Positions 3,316-60,949 of a DNA stretch of 64,000 nucleotides are shown here, in pieces. The DNA comes from Acidobacteriota bacterium (lineage in GTDB: Bacteria > Acidobacteriota > Thermoanaerobaculia > Gp7-AA8): the NCBI GenBank assembly GCA_021325515.1, contig JAJPHC010000037.1, positions 124,001 to 188,000 of the forward strand, written 5' to 3'. The notes beneath the pieces are model-generated. The model made no database searches and was not told the origin of the DNA. It saw only the letters and a program-made list of their open reading frames with translations. The translations under genes were made by a program, and so were the position numbers. Position 1 is the first letter of the stretch. Every line of letters starts with the position of its first letter.

Positions 3316-5631
3316 GTGACTGCGCCGACAAGGCAGCGTCCTCGCAAGCGACGTCGGTCGATGCGGAGACGCCGGCTCATCATTTCGATCTCGTCCGTCC
3401 TCGCGATCGCGCTCATCGCAGCGGTCGTCTGGTACTACGTTCCGAGACGCAGTCTCCACCACGAAGCGCACCTCAAGGCGAAGCCGGAAGCGCCGCCCGA
3501 TCTCGCGCGGCTGCGCGATGCCTACACGTCCGGTCTCGAAGCGCTGCAGCGCGGCGATGGAGCGGACGCCGTCAGACACTTCTCGTCGTTCCAGTTCGGG
3601 TCGCGCGCGGTGGAAGAGTACCGGCTCTACCTGCTGGCGAACGGCTACCAGTTGAAAGGTGATCGAAAGAGTGCGCGGCGCGTTCTTGCCGCGCTCTGGT
3701 ATCGCTCGCCGGCCCTCGTCTACTGGGAAGACGCCGCGTTCAATCTCGGCGGTCTCTATCGCGCGCTGGCGGACTGGGACAGGAGCGCCGACGTGTACGG
3801 CGCGATCGCGGTCCGATCGGAAGTGCCGTCGATTGCGGCGACGGCGCGCTGGAATGCAATCGAGGATCGATTCATTCGCGGCGACATCGATGCGGTGCTC
3901 TACGCGGCGCGCAATATCGGGATCAAGAGTCCGCGCGCCGCACAGGCCGCGGATGGGCTGAACATCGTCCGCTCGCTCTCCGGTCTGCCGAAGGATGCAG
4001 CGATCAGCCTCTCGCCCGCGGAGCGTCTCGAGCGCGGCGTGAGTCTTCTGCGCGATGGCGATCCGCAGAACGCCTACGACGAGCTGACAGCGCTCGAACC
4101 CGCTGCGCCGGCGGCGCTGCGTGATGCGGTCGAGCTGAATCGCGGCCTCGCGCTGTTTCAGTTGAAGCGCTTCGAAGATGCGAACCACGTCCTCGATCCG
4201 CTGAAGTCGCACACCTTCCGGATCGCAATTCCCGCGGTCTACTTCGCGGCGAAAGCCGACCGCGCGCTCGCGTCGTCGATCGATCCTTTCGTCTACAAGA
4301 CGGTTCTGCAGCGAAAGCAGGTCGGCACGATCAAGTTGCGCCGCGGCAAAGGAAAGACGGCGCACTTCGTCATGAAGCCGAAGTTCGCGAAGGTCAAGGT
4401 GCAGGTGAAGCTCGTCGATCTCGCGAAGAAAGCGAAACAGGACGAGTACGACAGGAAGTCGATCGAAGGATTCAAGGATCTCCTGACGCTTCCGCTCGCG
4501 AAGCCGGTGCGGATCGAGGCGCTCAACACGCTCATCGCACTCGCGGAGGCGAAGAAGCAGGATGACTACGAGCAGGAGTTGATCGCGCAGCTCGTGAAGC
4601 TCGACCGGCTGGCGGACCCCGGCCTGCAGCACTTCTGGGACAAGGCCTGGATTGCGTATTCGACCGGCGATCTCAACGGAGCGAAGACGTTGTTCCGCTT
4701 CATCGCCGACACGTATCAGAGCGTTGGCGCGAAGAGGCAGAGCGAGTACTGGTATGCACGGACGATCGAGCGCGCCGGTGAGAAGGAGAAGGCGCAGGAG
4801 ATCTATCGCACGCTGGCGAGCGCACCGTATGAAGACCTCTACGCAATCTTCGCGAAGGCACACGGGGCACAGAGCTCGCCGGTCACGACGAATCCGCTGA
4901 AGATGAATCGTCCCGACTGGGGCGTCATCGCCGAGAAGAACATGCCGTCCGAGCTGCGGCTGGCTTACGAGTTGACGGCGCTGTCGGACATGAAGAACGC
5001 ACGCGGCGAGATTCAGAAGAACGTCAATCGCGACAACCAGCCGTTCGCCGACGCGCTGATGGCGGATCTCTACAACGCGAACGGCAACGCGCAGTTGATG
5101 TTCCTGACGATCCGCCGTGCCTTCCCGCAACTGGCAACGGTCGAGCAGGACGCGGTGCCGCCCTACTTTCTGAAGATGTATTACCCGCGCAAGTATGAGG
5201 AGACCATCCGCAAAAATGCGGAGAAGAACGGAGTCGATCCCTATCTCATCATGGGGCTCATCCACCAGGAGAGCTACTTCAACCCGGCCGCGAAATCGGT
5301 GGTCGGCGCGACGGGGCTGATGCAGTTGATGCCGGCGACCGGCCGCGAACTAGCGAAGAAACTGCATACGTCCGATGACCTGGAGAATCCTGAAGTGAAC
5401 ATCAGGCTCGGCACCTATCACTTCCGCCATCTCATCGATCTGTTCGGCGGCGATCCCCAACTCGCCGTTGCATCCTACAACGCGGGCCAGGGCAACGTGC
5501 TGAACTGGCGGCGCGCCGCCCCGCGAAAACCGCCCGACGAATTCTTCGAGTCGATCCCGTTCGCGGAAACGCGAACGTATGTGAAACGCGTGACGCTGTT
5601 AGCCGCGGCCTACCGCAGATTGAGCGGGTAA
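3316..5631 (+). CDS. Membrane-anchored TPR lytic transglycosylase (Slt70-like)
   Basis: A 771-residue predicted peptidoglycan lytic transglycosylase. A basic N-terminus leads into one membrane anchor (about residues 20-38, LIISISSVLAIALIAAVVWY), so the rest is periplasmic. Residues of about 60-600 form a long helical, TPR-like solenoid as in Slt70. The C-terminal SLT domain is clear: DPYLIMGLIHQESYFNP carries the catalytic Glu at residue 652, followed by GATGLMQLMPATG and, near the end, ASYNAGQGNVLNW. These enzymes cleave the MurNAc-GlcNAc bond forming 1,6-anhydro products. The GTG at 3316 is 3 bp after the preceding stop; an in-frame ATG at 3361 is an alternative start. The gene ends at a large inverted tandem repeat shared with the convergent VWA gene. 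Confidence 0.88.
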   Translation: MTAPTRQRPRKRRRSMRRRRLIISISSVLAIALIAAVVWYYVPRRSLHHEAHLKAKPEAPPDLARLRDAYTSGLEALQRGDGADAVRHFSSFQFGSRAVEEYRLYLLANGYQLKGDRKSARRVLAALWYRSPALVYWEDAAFNLGGLYRALADWDRSADVYGAIAVRSEVPSIAATARWNAIEDRFIRGDIDAVLYAARNIGIKSPRAAQAADGLNIVRSLSGLPKDAAISLSPAERLERGVSLLRDGDPQNAYDELTALEPAAPAALRDAVELNRGLALFQLKRFEDANHVLDPLKSHTFRIAIPAVYFAAKADRALASSIDPFVYKTVLQRKQVGTIKLRRGKGKTAHFVMKPKFAKVKVQVKLVDLAKKAKQDEYDRKSIEGFKDLLTLPLAKPVRIEALNTLIALAEAKKQDDYEQELIAQLVKLDRLADPGLQHFWDKAWIAYSTGDLNGAKTLFRFIADTYQSVGAKRQSEYWYARTIERAGEKEKAQEIYRTLASAPYEDLYAIFAKAHGAQSSPVTTNPLKMNRPDWGVIAEKNMPSELRLAYELTALSDMKNARGEIQKNVNRDNQPFADALMADLYNANGNAQLMFLTIRRAFPQLATVEQDAVPPYFLKMYYPRKYEETIRKNAEKNGVDPYLIMGLIHQESYFNPAAKSVVGATGLMQLMPATGRELAKKLHTSDDLENPEVNIRLGTYHFRHLIDLFGGDPQLAVASYNAGQGNVLNWRRAAPRKPPDEFFESIPFAETRTYVKRVTLLAAAYRRLSG

Positions 5632-5635
5632 TTGG

Positions 5636-5742
5636 GGATGGGATGGGACTATGGGACCTATGGGACCTATAGGACCTATGGGCGGACCGTTTCTCCCTAT
5701 AGGTCCCATAGGTCCCATAGGTCCCATAGTCCCATCCCATCC
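5636..5742. repeat. Inverted arrays of a 9-nt unit (ATGGGACCT type), between convergent genes
   Basis: This fills the whole gap between the transglycosylase stop (5631) and the stop of the convergent VWA gene (5744). The left arm (5636-5682) is tandem copies of ATGGGACCT after an outer GGATGGGATGGGACT. The right arm (5695-5742) is the same array in reverse complement. The outer roughly 36 positions pair perfectly, giving a hairpin of about 47 bp with a loop of about 12 nt in either transcript. One copy per arm carries ATAGG in place of ATGGG. A bidirectional transcription end or RNA-stabilising element is the simplest reading. Confidence 0.85.
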
Positions 5743-5743
5743 A

Positions 5744-7537
5744 TCAGGGGATGTACCCCCGGATCGTCCGCACCTTCGCATTCGCGCGATCCACGCGGAC
5801 ATCGATCGTCCGATACTTGCGATCCTTCTTCGACGTCTCCGCGTTGTACGCGAGCAGATACTGCGTCCGCAGTTCTTTCTCGAGCTTCGTGTAGGTGTCT
5901 TTCAGCTCCTTCACATCCTTGATGAAGTAAGCGACGCCGCCGGTTTCCGCTGCGATGGCCTTCATCTTCGACGTGCCGCTGAAATCCGAGAGCCCGAGTC
6001 CGATCCCGATGAAGTAGATCGGCACGCGCGACGCGCGCACGTACTGGAGCATCTCGTCGTACGGGATGCGTGAGGTCGTGTCTTCGCCGTCAGTGAGGAC
6101 GATGAGGGCCTTGCGGCCCTGCACGCCGCGGAAACGATACAGTCCGGTGATGATCGCGTCGTAAAGCGACGTTCCCCCCTCGGCTTTGGGAATCGCTTCG
6201 ACCTGAGCCTGCAGCGTCTCGATGCTCGAGACGAAGGGCGCAATCTTCGTTGCATCGAACGCGAAGCCTGCGATGAAGGCGCGGTCCTGTCCCTTGATGA
6301 TGTCCCGGAAGAACTCCACCGCCGCTTCTTTCGTCGCTTTCATCCGCGGCTCCATCGAACCGGAATGATCGACGAGGACTCCGGCGGAGATCGGCAGATT
6401 CGATGCGTAGTTGAACGACGTGATCTTCTGTGGCTTCCCCTCTTCGAGGACCGTGAAGTCCTTCTCGGCAAGATTCGAGACCGGCGCGCCGTTCGCGTCC
6501 GTCACGGAGACCGGCAGCTCGACGAGATCGACGTCGAGCTCCTCCATGAAACGGTTGCCGTTCAGAAAGAGGATGTCGGTCGCTTCGTAGTTCGTCTCGT
6601 CCGTCACCGAAGCGCGGAGAAACTCGACGCCCTTCAGTTTGTCGGCGGGAAGATTCACCGCATACGGCGAGCCGCTCCACTCGAAGATCTTCTTCTGGCC
6701 TGCGAAAAGCACCGCCGACTTGATCGCCGTGTTCTTCGGATTGTGCAGCGACAGCTTGATGTGCGAGACGTTGTCGCCGGTGACGACGCGCGTCAGCTTG
6801 ACCTCGAGCGGCGTCTCCCGCTCGTTGACGACGAACGCATCGGCGTCCACGTAGTGGCCTTCTGCGTCATAGCCGATCGCCTTCACTTCCATCCGCTTCG
6901 GCAGGTTCCCGAGGTCGAGCTCGGCGTGATACGGCGGCGCGTTGCGCGTCAGAAGTTTCTTTCCTTCGACCCAGAACTCCACCTTCTTCACCGGCGGCGT
7001 GACTTCGACATCGACGATGAAGAGATTCGGCGCGATGTCGCGGCGCGGCGGAAGGATCTTCACACTGCCGGTCTGCTCCGGGATCACTCCCTCGGCCACG
7101 ACCGCCTCGGCTCCTTCGCTGATGTTTGCGGCGTAGGGCTTGTTCGTCTTCTCGATCAGGAACGATTTCGAGGTCTTGCCGACGATCACCGGCGCCTGCT
7201 CTTCGAGCGGTACCATGAGCCGCGCCTCGATCTCGACACTGCCCGGCGGCAGCGTGACGATCGCAGTCACTTGCTCGCGTTGCGCTTCCGTGAGCGCGTA
7301 GCGGAAGTTCCGGACGACCTGTCCCCCCTGCGAGATGGAGCCGTTGATGACGAGTGGAACCTGCGGCGGAACGTCGGAAGGAATGCTGAAGCGGTAGGTC
7401 GTCCGCGCGACGACGCCCGCAGCCGTGTCGCCGAGAGTCTCGAGGCCGATCGTCAGTGCGGCGCGGTTCGCGTCTTCTGCGGCGAACGAGGCACAAGCGA
7501 ACAGAAGCGAGAGGAGCGCTGCGAGCGACGTTCTCAT
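5744..7537 (-). CDS. Secreted VWFA-related-domain protein
   Basis: A 597-residue exported protein. The start at 7537 gives a good signal peptide, MRTSLAALLSLLFACASFAA. The first 370 residues are beta-rich, with repeated ligand-binding or Ig-like segments. A von Willebrand A domain follows (about residues 390-590): GVLVDHSGSMEPRM supplies the MIDAS DxSxS motif, and GRKALIVLTDGEDTTSRIPYD is the second conserved block. This resembles the acidobacterial VWFA-related family (TIGR03436). Function is unknown; VWA domains bind partner proteins through a divalent metal. It converges on the lytic transglycosylase gene across the repeat hairpin. The reading frame continues open far upstream of 7537, but that extension has no signal peptide and overlaps the phosphatase gene. 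Confidence 0.85.
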   Translation of the reverse strand: MRTSLAALLSLLFACASFAAEDANRAALTIGLETLGDTAAGVVARTTYRFSIPSDVPPQVPLVINGSISQGGQVVRNFRYALTEAQREQVTAIVTLPPGSVEIEARLMVPLEEQAPVIVGKTSKSFLIEKTNKPYAANISEGAEAVVAEGVIPEQTGSVKILPPRRDIAPNLFIVDVEVTPPVKKVEFWVEGKKLLTRNAPPYHAELDLGNLPKRMEVKAIGYDAEGHYVDADAFVVNERETPLEVKLTRVVTGDNVSHIKLSLHNPKNTAIKSAVLFAGQKKIFEWSGSPYAVNLPADKLKGVEFLRASVTDETNYEATDILFLNGNRFMEELDVDLVELPVSVTDANGAPVSNLAEKDFTVLEEGKPQKITSFNYASNLPISAGVLVDHSGSMEPRMKATKEAAVEFFRDIIKGQDRAFIAGFAFDATKIAPFVSSIETLQAQVEAIPKAEGGTSLYDAIITGLYRFRGVQGRKALIVLTDGEDTTSRIPYDEMLQYVRASRVPIYFIGIGLGLSDFSGTSKMKAIAAETGGVAYFIKDVKELKDTYTKLEKELRTQYLLAYNAETSKKDRKYRTIDVRVDRANAKVRTIRGYIP

Positions 7538-20773: not shown

Positions 20774-23767
20774 ATGCTCACTCTCCTCGCCGCGGCCACT
20801 CTCTTCGCCGCATCCTCCGAACTGCGCCTCGATCGTGTTCAGGAGTCTCTCACCGGGCTCCATTTCCACTATCAGCAATATGTCGATGGCGTTCCTCTGC
20901 TCGATGGTGACAACACGAATGTGCCGGTGCCGCACGGCGCGATGCATGTGCGCGGCACACTCCGCTTCGTGCAGAAGTCGATCGTGCAGGAACGGCCGCT
21001 GGAGCGGTTTGCGGAGTTTCGCGACGAGAAGAGCGGAGAGCTGCTGCGCCGCGTTCCTCTGTTCTGGACCGCGAAGGGGCGCGTCTTCATCAGCAATCCC
21101 GTCACGCGCCTGAACGATCCGGCGCTGCAGGATCAGAACGACAGCGCGGCCGCGGTGCCGCTGCAGGCCTACAGCGAAGTGGATGTCGATCCGGCGCTCG
21201 GCGGACCGAACGTCGTGATCTCTGATCTCGAGCCGCCGGTGAATCCGGTGATCGATCCCGCGCAGCCGCTGCTGTTCGATCGCAGCCAGCCGCAGTTCGA
21301 GATGGTGAACGCCTGGTACCACATCGATCGCGCGCAGAAATATCTTCAGTCGCTCGGCTACACCGGTCCGCGCCGGCTCGTCGACTACGCGCTCCCCGTG
21401 GATCCGCACGGCGCGAATCAGGCTGACAACTCGTACTACATCGCAGGCGCAACGCCGGGACGCGGCGCGCTCTACTTCGGCGACGGCGGCACCGACGACG
21501 CGGAAGATCCCGACATCATGCTGCACGAGTTCATGCACGCCGTGCAGGACTGGATCGCGCCGGGCGCCTTCGGCGGCGAGTCGCGCGATCAGGCCCGCGC
21601 CCTCGGCGAAGGCTATGCGGATTACTGGTCCTTCTCGTCGACTTACGCAGACGCCGTGAGCAGCGGGCGCGATCCGTTCTGCATCGGCGACTGGGATGCG
21701 CGCTGCTGGCTCGACGACTCGTCCCAGAATTGCGGCTACGCGCCCGGGTCGGATTGTCTTCGCCGCGTCGACAGCACGAAGACCATGTCCGACTACCTCG
21801 ATGCCAATCAGAGCGGCATCGAGCACAAGAACGGCGAGATCTGGTCCTCCGCCTTGCGCGAGATCTTCCTGCGGCTGGGAACGAGATACGGAACCGATGC
21901 AGGCAAGCGGATGATGGACACGCTCGTGATCGAGTCGTACTTCGACACTCCGCCGTCGCCGACGTTTCGCGTGATGGCCGGGAAGCTGATCGACGCGGAC
22001 CGGCTGCTCTACGGCGGCTCGAATGCGACGGCGATCTGTTCCGCGATGACGCTGCGCTCGATTCTCACCGCTGCGGATTGCGATCGCGCACCTCGCGGAG
22101 AAGTGACGTACTTCCAGAGCGCGGATCAGAATCGCCCGCTTCCGGACAACGATCCGCAGGGCGTGCTCTCGACGCTGACGATCACGGACACACGCTCGAT
22201 CAACCGTTTGTTCGTGCACGTTCGCGCGTCGCATCCCGCGCGTGGCAATCTCCGCATCACGCTCGTCGCGCCCGACGGTACGACGGTGCTGCTCAAGCAG
22301 GAGTCGTTCGATATCACGCCTGATCTCGACGTCACGTACGGCCTCGACGCGCAGCCCGCACAGCCGCTCGATGTGCTTCAGGGACATCCGGCCGCAGGCA
22401 CCTGGCAGTTGCGCGTTGCCGATGTCCTCCCGACGGAGCGGGGGACATTTCTGTCGTGGTCTCTCGGATTCGAATTCGTCGGCGATGTGCCGGCGGCGTC
22501 GCGTCCAGTGACGGCGGGTGGCAAGCGGACGATCGCCGTCGCCGGCCATCTGAACGGCGCGAACGGCACGCGCTTCGTCAGCGACGTGAAGATCTTCAAC
22601 CGCGGCAGCACGCCGGCGAACGTGATGCTGATCTACACGCCGAGCGGCGCCAACGGCAACGACACGTTTGCCGCTGTGCGCGCGGTGATCGATGCGGGGC
22701 AGGTCGTCTCCTTCGATGACATCGTTGCGAATGAGATGCAGAGCGTCGGTTCCGGACAGCTCGAGATCGACGGAGATGTCGCGCAACTTGCGATCACGAG
22801 CCGCACCTACACGAGGTCTCCGGCGGGAACCTACGGCCAGACGATTCCAGCGCTGCCGGCCGGCGCAGCGGCATCACCGGCGGTGATCAACTTCGCGGAA
22901 GTGGACGATGACTTCCGGACGAACTTCGGATTTGCGGATGCAGGCGGAGCCGGCGGAAGTATGCACGTCGCGATCACGCGTCTGGGGAGCGATGCCGTCG
23001 TCTATGCATCCGACTTCACGATTCTTCCGTTCTCGCATCAGCAGATTTCGTTGACGGGAGTGCGCGGTGATTTCGTCATCACCATGACGCCATCCAACGG
23101 CGCGAAGATCCTCGGATACGCAAGCGTCGTCGACAATCGCACCGGCGATCCGATCTACGTACCCGCTCAGCCGATTGAGACCTCTGCGCACGACGCGATC
23201 GCGCCGGCAGTGAATGCACCGGGCGCGAATGGCACGCTCTGGAGGACGGATGTCCGAACGACGACAGCCCGGACCATTCTTCGTTTTCGTGACAGCGAGC
23301 GGGAAGCGGGAACGTACGTTGTGCGCGACGTGCTCGGGAGTCTGTTCCAGGCGGTGAATACGAGCGGCGCTCTGCTCGCGAAAATCCCGGCGGGAGAGAT
23401 CGTGACGACGCGGACCTGGACGGACTCCGCGAATGGTTCGTTCGGCCAGTACATCCCTTTCTTCGATGTTGAGAGCGGAACGCGAAGCGCCGATGTTCTG
23501 CAGGTCGAAGTCTCGCCGGCGTTCCGCACGAACATCGGGGTGATGGCGCCGCTGGGCTCGACCGCACATCTCACCGAGACCAACGCCGCGGGCGCGGTGC
23601 TCGCCAGCTACGACGTCGCGATCGCGCCGATGCAGCTCGTGCAGATCCCGATGACGGCGCCCGTGATCAACGGCCGCGTCCACATCGAGGCGACCGCCCC
23701 GGTGATTGCGTATGGGTCGCTGGTGGACAACAGAACGGGAGATCCGGCGTTTGTGGCAGGGGAGTGA
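20774..23767 (+). CDS. Secreted zinc metalloprotease with P-domain and tandem beta modules
   Basis: A 997-residue exported protein with a short signal sequence (MLTLLAAATLFAASS). A propeptide-like region (about 20-130) precedes a gluzincin-type catalytic domain: HEFMH with zinc ligands H251 and H255 and catalytic E252, and a probable third ligand E279 in LGEGYADYWS. This resembles M36 fungalysin-like enzymes. About residues 455-575 form a proprotein-convertase P-domain (LTITDTRSINRLFVHVRASH to GTWQLRVADVLP). The last 410 residues are two copies of a beta-sandwich module (about 585-800 and 810-997), each containing a YxSxVDNRTGDP motif near its end. It probably degrades external protein. The stop codon is fused to a tandem-repeat hairpin. 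Confidence 0.85.
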   Translation: MLTLLAAATLFAASSELRLDRVQESLTGLHFHYQQYVDGVPLLDGDNTNVPVPHGAMHVRGTLRFVQKSIVQERPLERFAEFRDEKSGELLRRVPLFWTAKGRVFISNPVTRLNDPALQDQNDSAAAVPLQAYSEVDVDPALGGPNVVISDLEPPVNPVIDPAQPLLFDRSQPQFEMVNAWYHIDRAQKYLQSLGYTGPRRLVDYALPVDPHGANQADNSYYIAGATPGRGALYFGDGGTDDAEDPDIMLHEFMHAVQDWIAPGAFGGESRDQARALGEGYADYWSFSSTYADAVSSGRDPFCIGDWDARCWLDDSSQNCGYAPGSDCLRRVDSTKTMSDYLDANQSGIEHKNGEIWSSALREIFLRLGTRYGTDAGKRMMDTLVIESYFDTPPSPTFRVMAGKLIDADRLLYGGSNATAICSAMTLRSILTAADCDRAPRGEVTYFQSADQNRPLPDNDPQGVLSTLTITDTRSINRLFVHVRASHPARGNLRITLVAPDGTTVLLKQESFDITPDLDVTYGLDAQPAQPLDVLQGHPAAGTWQLRVADVLPTERGTFLSWSLGFEFVGDVPAASRPVTAGGKRTIAVAGHLNGANGTRFVSDVKIFNRGSTPANVMLIYTPSGANGNDTFAAVRAVIDAGQVVSFDDIVANEMQSVGSGQLEIDGDVAQLAITSRTYTRSPAGTYGQTIPALPAGAAASPAVINFAEVDDDFRTNFGFADAGGAGGSMHVAITRLGSDAVVYASDFTILPFSHQQISLTGVRGDFVITMTPSNGAKILGYASVVDNRTGDPIYVPAQPIETSAHDAIAPAVNAPGANGTLWRTDVRTTTARTILRFRDSEREAGTYVVRDVLGSLFQAVNTSGALLAKIPAGEIVTTRTWTDSANGSFGQYIPFFDVESGTRSADVLQVEVSPAFRTNIGVMAPLGSTAHLTETNAAGAVLASYDVAIAPMQLVQIPMTAPVINGRVHIEATAPVIAYGSLVDNRTGDPAFVAGE

Positions 23768-23872
23768 TGGGACGATGGGACGGATGGGACGGATAGGACG
23801 GATGGGACACAGAGGTCACCGTGTTCTTCCCCATCCGTCCTATCCGTCCCATCCGTCCCATACGTCCCATCC
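23766..23872. repeat. Inverted arrays of a 9-nt unit (ATGGGACGG type)
   Basis: The first unit starts on the A of the protease stop codon (TGATGGGACG). The left arm (23766-23807) and right arm (23831-23872) are near-perfect reverse complements of about 42 bp, with a loop of about 23 nt. A variant unit ATAGGACGG is present at the same position in both arms, so pairing is kept. Downstream (23881-23902) is a separate 7-bp inverted repeat ATTTGCG/CGCAAAT, just before the next gene. Confidence 0.85.
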
Positions 23873-29466: not shown

Positions 29467-29592
29467 GGATGGGGGATGGGAGTATGGGACTATGGGACCT
29501 ATGGGACCTATGGGACCTATGGGTGGAGGCCGTTCTCCCCATAGGTCCCATAGGTCCTATAGGTCCCATCCGTCCCATCCTCCCCTCCATCC
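29467..29592. repeat. Inverted arrays of a 9-nt unit with adjacent T-run
   Basis: This begins on the base after the TGA of the TIGR02757-like gene. The left arm (29467-29528) holds ATGGGACCT copies, and the right arm (29535-29592) the reverse complement with one ATGGGACGG-type unit and one ATAGG variant. Against the left arm these give mostly G-U pairs. A T-run (29593-29598) follows, so a rightward transcript would show hairpin plus U-tract. About 135 nt of AT-richer leader then precede the kinase gene at 29735. Confidence 0.83.
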
Positions 29593-44387: not shown

Positions 44388-45061
44388 GCCGTTACGATTG
44401 CGGATGGGATGCGGGAGTCGTCCCCATCAACGTTCGCCTCGCCGGGCACAATCGCGAGCACTTCCTCGACGACGGCCTGCTCGCCGTCAATCTGATGGGA
44501 TCACCCTGCGCCGGCAAGACGTCGATTCTGGAGGCGGTGGCGCGCGCGGCGAAAAATCCGCGCAGGATCGTAGCGATGACCGCGGAGCCCGCAAAGGAGA
44601 ACGATGCGAATCGGTTGATGGCTGCGGGCATTCGATCGAAGGCGATCGAGATGCGGCGGGCGGCTCCTCTCGATGCCGAGCTCGTGCAACGCACGCTGCA
44701 TCATCTCGACGCCGGCGACGCCGAGTATCTCTTCATCGAGAGCTGCGGCAATCTCCTCGGCCCCGTCTGCGACTTCGGTCAATCGCTCAACGTCGTCGCG
44801 TTGTCGATCACCGAGGGTGAGGAGAAAGCGCTGCATTTTCCGGAGATGTTCGAGAAGGCCGATCTCGTGCTGCTGACCAAGGCGGATCTGCTGCCGCATC
44901 TTCCGTTCATCAACGTGAAGGCGATCATGGATGCGCTGGCGCAGGCGATGCCTTCGCCGCGCGTGATTTCGATGTCGTGCCGCACGGGGCTCGGTGTCGA
45001 GGCGTTTCTTCGCTGGCTCGAGGCGGCGCGTGCGGCAGCGCTGGAGAAGTTGTTGGTTTGA
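44384..45061 (+). CDS. hypB: Hydrogenase nickel-incorporation GTPase HypB-like
   Basis: A 225-residue SIMIBI GTPase. The P-loop is NLMGSPCAGKTSILEA; other G-motifs and family blocks are TAEPAKENDANRL, FIESCGNLLGPV, LSITEGEEKALHFPEMF and VLLTKADLLPHL. HypB normally inserts nickel with HypA. There is no His-rich N-terminus. The G-domain Cys usually in the NLVCP motif is not in that place here (NLLGPVCD, with Cys three positions later), so metal binding may differ. The start at 44384 overlaps the upstream gene by ATGA. The stop codon A is also the first base of a 9-nt repeat array. Confidence 0.9.
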   Translation: MSRYDCGWDAGVVPINVRLAGHNREHFLDDGLLAVNLMGSPCAGKTSILEAVARAAKNPRRIVAMTAEPAKENDANRLMAAGIRSKAIEMRRAAPLDAELVQRTLHHLDAGDAEYLFIESCGNLLGPVCDFGQSLNVVALSITEGEEKALHFPEMFEKADLVLLTKADLLPHLPFINVKAIMDALAQAMPSPRVISMSCRTGLGVEAFLRWLEAARAAALEKLLV

Positions 45062-45112
45062 TGGGACGGATGGGACGGATGGGACCGATGGGACCGATGG
45101 GTGGAAACGGTC
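45061..45112. repeat. Single-arm array of the 9-nt unit
   Basis: The array begins on the A of the hypB stop (TGATGGGACGG) and runs to about 45103 as two ATGGGACGG-type and two ATGGGACCG-type units. No matching inverted arm follows; only a 6-bp stem GGACCG/CGGTCC can form before the convergent waaF stop at 45113. It looks like a half or decayed copy of the elements at 5636, 23766 and 29467. Confidence 0.8.
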
Positions 45113-60766: not shown

Positions 60767-60949
60767 GGAACGATGAACGATGAACGATGAACGATGAACA
60801 GGGAACGATGAACGATGAACAGGGAACGATGAACGATGAACAAGGAACGTGGCCCTGGCCATGTTTCTCCCTCGTCCCATGTTCATCGTTCATCGTTCAT
60901 CGTTCATCGTTCATCGTTCTCCAACATCGTTCATCGTTCATCGTTCCCT
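60767..60949. repeat. Inverted arrays of a 7-nt unit (ATGAACG)
   Basis: It lies 27 nt after the chalcone-isomerase-like stop. The left arm (60767-60849) is ATGAACG units interspersed with a 14-nt double unit ending AGGGAACG. The right arm (60879-60949) is the reverse complement, with one interruption. Loop region about 30 nt. The arms could form an imperfect stem of roughly 70 bp. Since 7 nt repeats in all frames without stops, it creates false reading frames rich in FIVHRSS. Confidence 0.85.

Follow-up and report, generated by a model that had tools for sequence, protein, structure and literature searches.

An inverted array of nine-nucleotide units between two convergent acidobacterial genes as a probable member of a dispersed family of stop-codon-associated palindromes

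Introduction

In the window analysed here, a stretch of 64,000 nucleotides from an acidobacterial genome, two genes converge on a gap that appears to contain nothing but short tandem repeats facing their own reverse complement. This raises the question what kind of element occupies the gap, whether it occurs elsewhere and what it could do for, or to, the transcripts that end there. The neighbouring genes, encoding a lytic transglycosylase (SLT; 3316–5631, + strand, counted from the first ATG/GTG of the frame, so that the true start may be later) and a VWA-domain protein (5744–7537, − strand), are solid assignments.

Results

Structure of the array at positions 5636–5742

Direct reading of the sequence identified the complete 112-nt gap between the stop codon of the transglycosylase gene (TAA, ending at 5631) and that of the VWA gene (TGA at 5744, minus strand) as a single inverted array. 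The left arm (5636–5682, + strand) begins 4 nt beyond the transglycosylase stop and consists of tandem ATRGGACNN units, with ATGGGAC in sense orientation for the transglycosylase transcript. Its reverse complement, the right arm (5696–5742, − strand), presents ATGGGAC in sense orientation to the VWA transcript and ends 1 nt short of the VWA stop. Both arms were delimited by sequence, fold and Tandem Repeats Finder (TRF), which reported period 9 for either arm, while sequence and fold define the apical loop region (5683–5695), the sequence of which is specific to this locus. The arms comprise 47 nt each, are 96% complementary and enclose a loop of 13 nt. The first-pass annotation of a 9-nt-unit inverted array common to two convergent genes was thus borne out, although the unit is better given as ATRGGACNN, with NN being mostly CT here and GG, CG, GA etc. 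elsewhere. The "perfect stem of 36 bp or more" that it had also proposed is indeed very long, but its uninterrupted part amounts to 35 bp and is followed by one A·C mismatch and 11 more bp including one G·U pair.

The RNA fold of the array reached −99.1 kcal/mol as compared to −45.5 ± 4.1 for shuffled sequences (z −13.2). Judged by this fold as well as by the genomic matches described below, the array is far beyond chance. Collagen-like coding (MGP repeats) suggested by open reading frames at 5651–6073 (+) and 5432–5740 (−) was rejected; these frames are by-products of the array, which sits between two solid genes. Rfam 15, applied to the window at gathering score, returned two tRNAs only and left the array unmatched.

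Copies in the same genome

A genome-wide search for further copies, as suggested by the first-pass annotation, revealed a high-copy family: exact tandem ATGGGACNNATGGGAC matched 429 times (233 + 196) in the 5.38-Mb genome, while the reversed pattern, used as a control, did not match at all. In 855 kb surveyed for arrays, about 16% of the genome, 32 arrays of at least three units were present (37 per Mb; 25 two-armed, seven one-armed), which extrapolates to about 200 per genome. Unit spacing in a 464-kb subset was 9 (68 cases) or 8 (11 cases), the spacer was mostly CT, GG or CG, and ATAGGAC occurred as a recurrent variant of the ATGGGAC unit.

Three of the further copies reside in the window itself. 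A second two-armed ATRGGACNN array (23767–23870) includes the TGA stop of the upstream + strand gene in its first unit, a third (29484–29578) lies 17 nt past the stop of a + strand gene, and a one-armed array of four units (45061–45094, + strand), situated between convergent genes, starts at a TGA stop. In addition, the genome contains inverted arrays of other units, i.e., GATGAAC, AATTGAA, GAGTGAC and GAGTGCT; one such array occupies a co-directional gap at 60768–60946 of the window, with the heptamer GAACGAT repeated with period 7 in about ten copies per side.

Position relative to stop codons

With gene ends taken from a simple codon-usage gene caller written for this analysis, 31 of the 33 stop-facing array edges in the sampled 855 kb were positioned at −13 to +18 nt relative to the stop, as opposed to distances of 10–408 nt for start-facing edges. 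For co-directional gene pairs, 15 of 17 arrays were located no more than 18 nt from the stop, while 4.9 would be expected for a uniform position within the gap (P 3.6e-9; P 8e-6 when the 60 nt ahead of the start are barred). All eight convergent copies lay within 18 nt of both stops. The arrays are therefore anchored at the stop codon itself and not at sites of convergence. Three arrays were found in gaps called divergent, one of which may be accounted for by a missed short gene; tRNAs were looked for as an explanation of the three and none fits.

In many arrays the first unit includes the stop codon, either as TGA-TGGGAC or, with the ATAGGAC variant, as A-TAG-GAC. The unit core ATRGG overlapped the stop or lay upstream of it in only three of 32 arrays, so that arrays begin at the stop and seldom extend into the gene. 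Within 40 nt of 725 gene ends, sense units came as sets of three or four at 28 ends, as two units at three ends and as a single unit at two. Solo units are thus nearly absent from gene ends, which indicates that arrays arrive, or expand, as wholes and argues against a gradual in situ build-up starting from one unit.

Pairing between arms and conservation of the unit

Spacers at matching register of the two arms were complementary in 28 of 43 cases in the window's genome (12.7 expected by shuffling) and in 48 of 165 cases in other phyla (17.6 expected). This excess over shuffling argues that the stem is kept, or made, as a stem. In the other phyla most spacers are mismatched while the heptamer ATGGGAC is kept, implying constraint on, or copying of, the heptamer as such; this contrast is somewhat biased because arrays were located via the heptamer. 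The apical loops are specific to their loci: among 12 dispersed copies of an array family from a sister genome (G278), the arms aligned at 0.76 per base, whereas the loops (−0.16) aligned no better than shuffled sequences (−0.27 ± 0.19).

Sister genomes and the orthologous gene end

Exact matches to the two-armed pattern within the family were restricted to the window's genome (G000; 49), G308 (14) and G029 (10), with overlapping matches of one array counted separately, and numbered zero in the other 15 genomes. A hairpin scan that ignored unit sequence nevertheless detected stop-adjacent inverted tandem arrays in sister genomes, mostly with 7-nt units: AGAGATC in G246, GCAGAAG, GCAGATG, AATTGAG and AAGCAGA in G278, and GAAGGAT in G303. 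Samples of 100 kb each, taken from G055 and from one part of G307, contained no inverted tandem arrays. The G278 unit GGCAGAAG had no two-armed occurrence in 119 genomes of the phylum, a draw to which G278 itself did not belong, and looks lineage-restricted, unlike ATGGGAC.

The congeners G278 and G307 share a syntenic stretch of 180 kb with a median protein identity of 74%. Counting repeat-built arrays together with other palindromes, 63 adjacent gene pairs common to both featured a long hairpin only in G278 at 19 sites, only in G307 at two and in both at none. The median gap at the 19 sites was 117 nt in G278 vs. 10 nt in G307, and pairs that overlap by 1–4 nt in G307 are set apart in G278 by barely more than the hairpin. 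The hairpin-free sites in G307 include convergent gaps of 0–15 nt. These empty sites demonstrate gain or loss of whole elements and show that a hairpin is not required. The differences between congeneric genomes at each site sampled make them a natural experiment on the effect of a 3′ stem on its gene.

The comparison of the same gene end across relatives, also proposed in the first-pass annotation, revealed a palindrome that begins only a few nt from the orthologous transglycosylase stop in about eight of 17 family members, those below the scan threshold being judged by eye. Each belonged to a different family, i.e., the ATGGGAC array in G000, a TGATCAC array in G308, an AGAGATC array in G246 and unrelated palindromes in G298, G300, G305, G306 and G307; the remaining members had none. 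That different families have repeatedly settled at one gene end suggests either that palindromes land there preferentially or that a stem is beneficial at this place.

Occurrence of the ATGGGAC unit in other phyla

Within the phylum of the window, the tandem pattern was present in 22 of 297 sampled genomes (reversed control, four). Among the matches listed, named genomes with the two-armed pattern stem from Planctomycetaceae (at least four metagenome-assembled genomes (MAGs) of Schlesneria), Phycisphaeraceae, Victivallales, Verrucomicrobiota/Opitutaceae and Hydrogenedentota, and the pattern was also listed for Thermoanaerobaculia, other Acidobacteria, a Chlamydiae MAG and one Proteobacteria MAG. 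Nearly all of these genomes are MAGs and single assignments may therefore be wrong, though several genomes carry many copies. Summed over the other groups, 36 of 81 stop-facing but only three of 65 start-facing edges lay within 20 nt, with gene calling being rougher on these short loci. A viral origin or phage-borne repeat was rejected, as the two-armed pattern had no match in the viral contigs of IMG/VR.

In Planctomycetaceae bacterium D4_Bin_5, two 8-kb stretches of JAKFWA010000018.1 (L010, L060) feature nine ATGGGAC-type arrays, mostly behind consecutive co-directional genes, such that nearly every gene end at this locus has one. The Schlesneria MAGs (L048:2261–2557, L011, L068, L072) contain multiple arrays with conserved spacers, some of them away from gene ends.

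The presence of ATGGGAC in distant phyla, while close relatives use other units or none, points to a hitherto undescribed, fast-changing kind of element, a palindrome at gene ends the arms of which are minisatellites. That one and the same heptamer turns up in several phyla demands a factor, either mobile or conserved, which likewise seems undescribed.

Discussion

An RNA stem behind the stop codon

On balance, we consider it probable that the array is a dispersed, rapidly turned-over gene-end palindrome resembling repetitive extragenic palindromes (REPs), the RNA stem of which caps both converging transcripts directly behind the stop without being a canonical intrinsic terminator. The gap at 5636–5742 would accordingly represent one copy of a high-copy palindrome that lodges directly at stop codons. 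In the RNA, the arms would pair to an extremely stable stem that starts about 0–18 nt from the stop, the site of release of the last ribosome. According to work cited in PMC12306157, REPs no more than 15 nt from the stop stall ribosomes and lower translation in Escherichia coli. The stop-proximal position of the arrays is one where such stems alter translation in E. coli. Because the arrays lie within the E. coli stalling range and the genome encodes Rho as well as tmRNA, we favor a model in which the stem acts at the level of RNA. Its most likely effect, modelled on the stop-proximal E. coli REPs, would be to delimit and protect the 3′ end of the mRNA, in a convergent pair those of both transcripts, and it may also delay the ribosome at termination. 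If transcription stops there at all, this would depend on the stem together with Rho and not on a U-tract. The element would spread selfishly, survive best right behind stops and perhaps sometimes be useful to the host there. Two strong Rho-family matches were noted (G000, C51:137946–139178 and C55:85837–86934), one above and one below the curated cut-off.

Selfish spread, termination and protein binding

It appears rather unlikely that the palindrome is purely selfish and devoid of any function at gene ends, inserting anywhere and being retained only between a stop and the next promoter since it would be harmful elsewhere. The dispersed copies with sharp ends, their insertion even between genes that overlap in a congener and the complete turnover of whole elements between congeneric species are what such an element would leave behind, and the family does behave like a mobile or selfish repeat, compatible with the first-pass proposal to this effect. 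However, the arrays are nearer to stops than avoidance of the 60 nt before a start would yield (P 8e-6), their stems stay paired and many relatives have different palindrome families at one and the same gene end.

A more far-reaching possibility, which we put forward tentatively, is a new class of mobile elements, i.e., stop-codon-targeted palindromes with minisatellite arms that are made or copied by a trans-acting factor knowing the unit, the ATGGGAC version having spread across Acidobacteriota, Planctomycetota, Verrucomicrobiota/Lentisphaerota and Hydrogenedentota alongside kindred versions with 7-nt units. Inspection of Y1/RAYT genes did not identify a mobilizing enzyme: no two-armed array lay within about 3 kb of seven Y1 genes in the window's genome and nine in G029, where a single two-unit array was found near a Y1 gene. 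The RAYT/Y1 transposase was rejected as mobilizer; it is present in all 12 genomes whatever their array load and is not array-flanked in the window's genome.

The bidirectional terminator considered in the first-pass annotation is conceivable, albeit not of the canonical intrinsic kind. In its strict form, where repeat expansion lengthens a terminator stem that is conserved for termination, this explanation is improbable. It would suit the very stable, GC-rich hairpin behind the stop, the convergent gaps filled from stop to stop and the T-rich tails found in Schlesneria at eight of 17 stop-facing stem ends. In the window's genome, by contrast, such a tail occurred at only two of 52 stem ends, the other 50 lacking a U-tract directly after the stem, which renders canonical terminators unlikely. 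Moreover, convergent gaps in a congener do without a hairpin, elements are also inserted inside tight operons and one-armed arrays cannot form such a fold. An array of binding sites, in which a protein that binds DNA or RNA recognizes ATGGGAC as an uptake, segregation or chromosome-structure signal and gene ends are merely permissive, would accommodate the conserved heptamer with variable spacers across phyla as well as the one-armed arrays, but is very improbable given that sister genomes share the design with other units, solo sites at gene ends are nearly absent, the complementarity of spacers between the arms exceeds chance and most relatives lack the element.

Comparison with known repeats

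Like REP, BIME and REPIN sequences (PMC3733652; PMC12306157), the arrays are extragenic palindromes of high copy number that form lineage-specific families and often abut genes. REPs carry an invariant tetranucleotide, GTAG or CGTC, at one of their ends, and the terminus of GTAG REPs can itself provide the stop codon (PMC3733652). While REPs are palindromes of 20–40 bp, the arms here are 40–50 nt long and built from tandem 9- or 7-nt units, and the array junctions start with TGATGGGAC or ATAGGAC instead of a constant GTAG or CGTC; CGTC appears at array ends only if C happens to be the last base of the variable spacer. The element would work like stop-proximal REPs, but lacks their end tag as well as, in the window's genome, an adjoining RAYT gene.

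A stable inverted repeat behind the stop that serves both strands in convergent pairs is also common to intrinsic terminators and post-stop inverted repeats. Bacterial perfect inverted repeats peak 50–80 nt past the stop and mostly have spacers of 4–5 nt (PMC13155455), whereas the arrays described here are situated 0–18 nt from the stop and have longer loops and arms composed of repeats, mostly without a T-tract.

With miniature inverted-repeat transposable elements (MITEs) the arrays share shortness, dispersal, palindromic structure and presence or absence between relatives. They differ from them in that no transposase was identified. Inspection by eye of the 12 aligned copies of the G278 family showed no target-site duplication, although the empty sites have diverged too far for an exact comparison. 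The short tandemly repeated repetitive (STRR) sequences of cyanobacteria are similar in that short units, often of 7 nt, form tandem arrays scattered over intergenic regions; these arrays are direct, however, and are not known to have an inverted partner or to be tied to stops. Integron attC sites are palindromes with a variable loop behind a stop codon. They are an unlikely match, as ATGGGAC/GTCCCAT does not appear to fit their core boxes and the loci are not gene cassettes. Six array sequences had no match in the open-access literature searched, where by theme only REP and inverted-repeat surveys were retrieved.

The arrays show that gene ends in several little-studied phyla have repeatedly been colonized by long repeat-built hairpins within a few bases of the stop. 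Two further palindromes were observed in the window's genome. The REP-like sequence GTGTAGGACAGGCGCCCTCGCCTGTC recurs at L104:6330, L112:7336, L117:6075, L118:10159 and L122:9640 and often adjoins stop codons, too. A near-perfect inverted repeat of 95–107 nt (GTTAAGTTGGTTTTCGGGGGTCACACCTGG...) is present in almost identical form at three unlinked gene ends (L111:12993–13087, L115:13896–14002 and L130:5742–5841) and resembles a recently moved MITE-type element.
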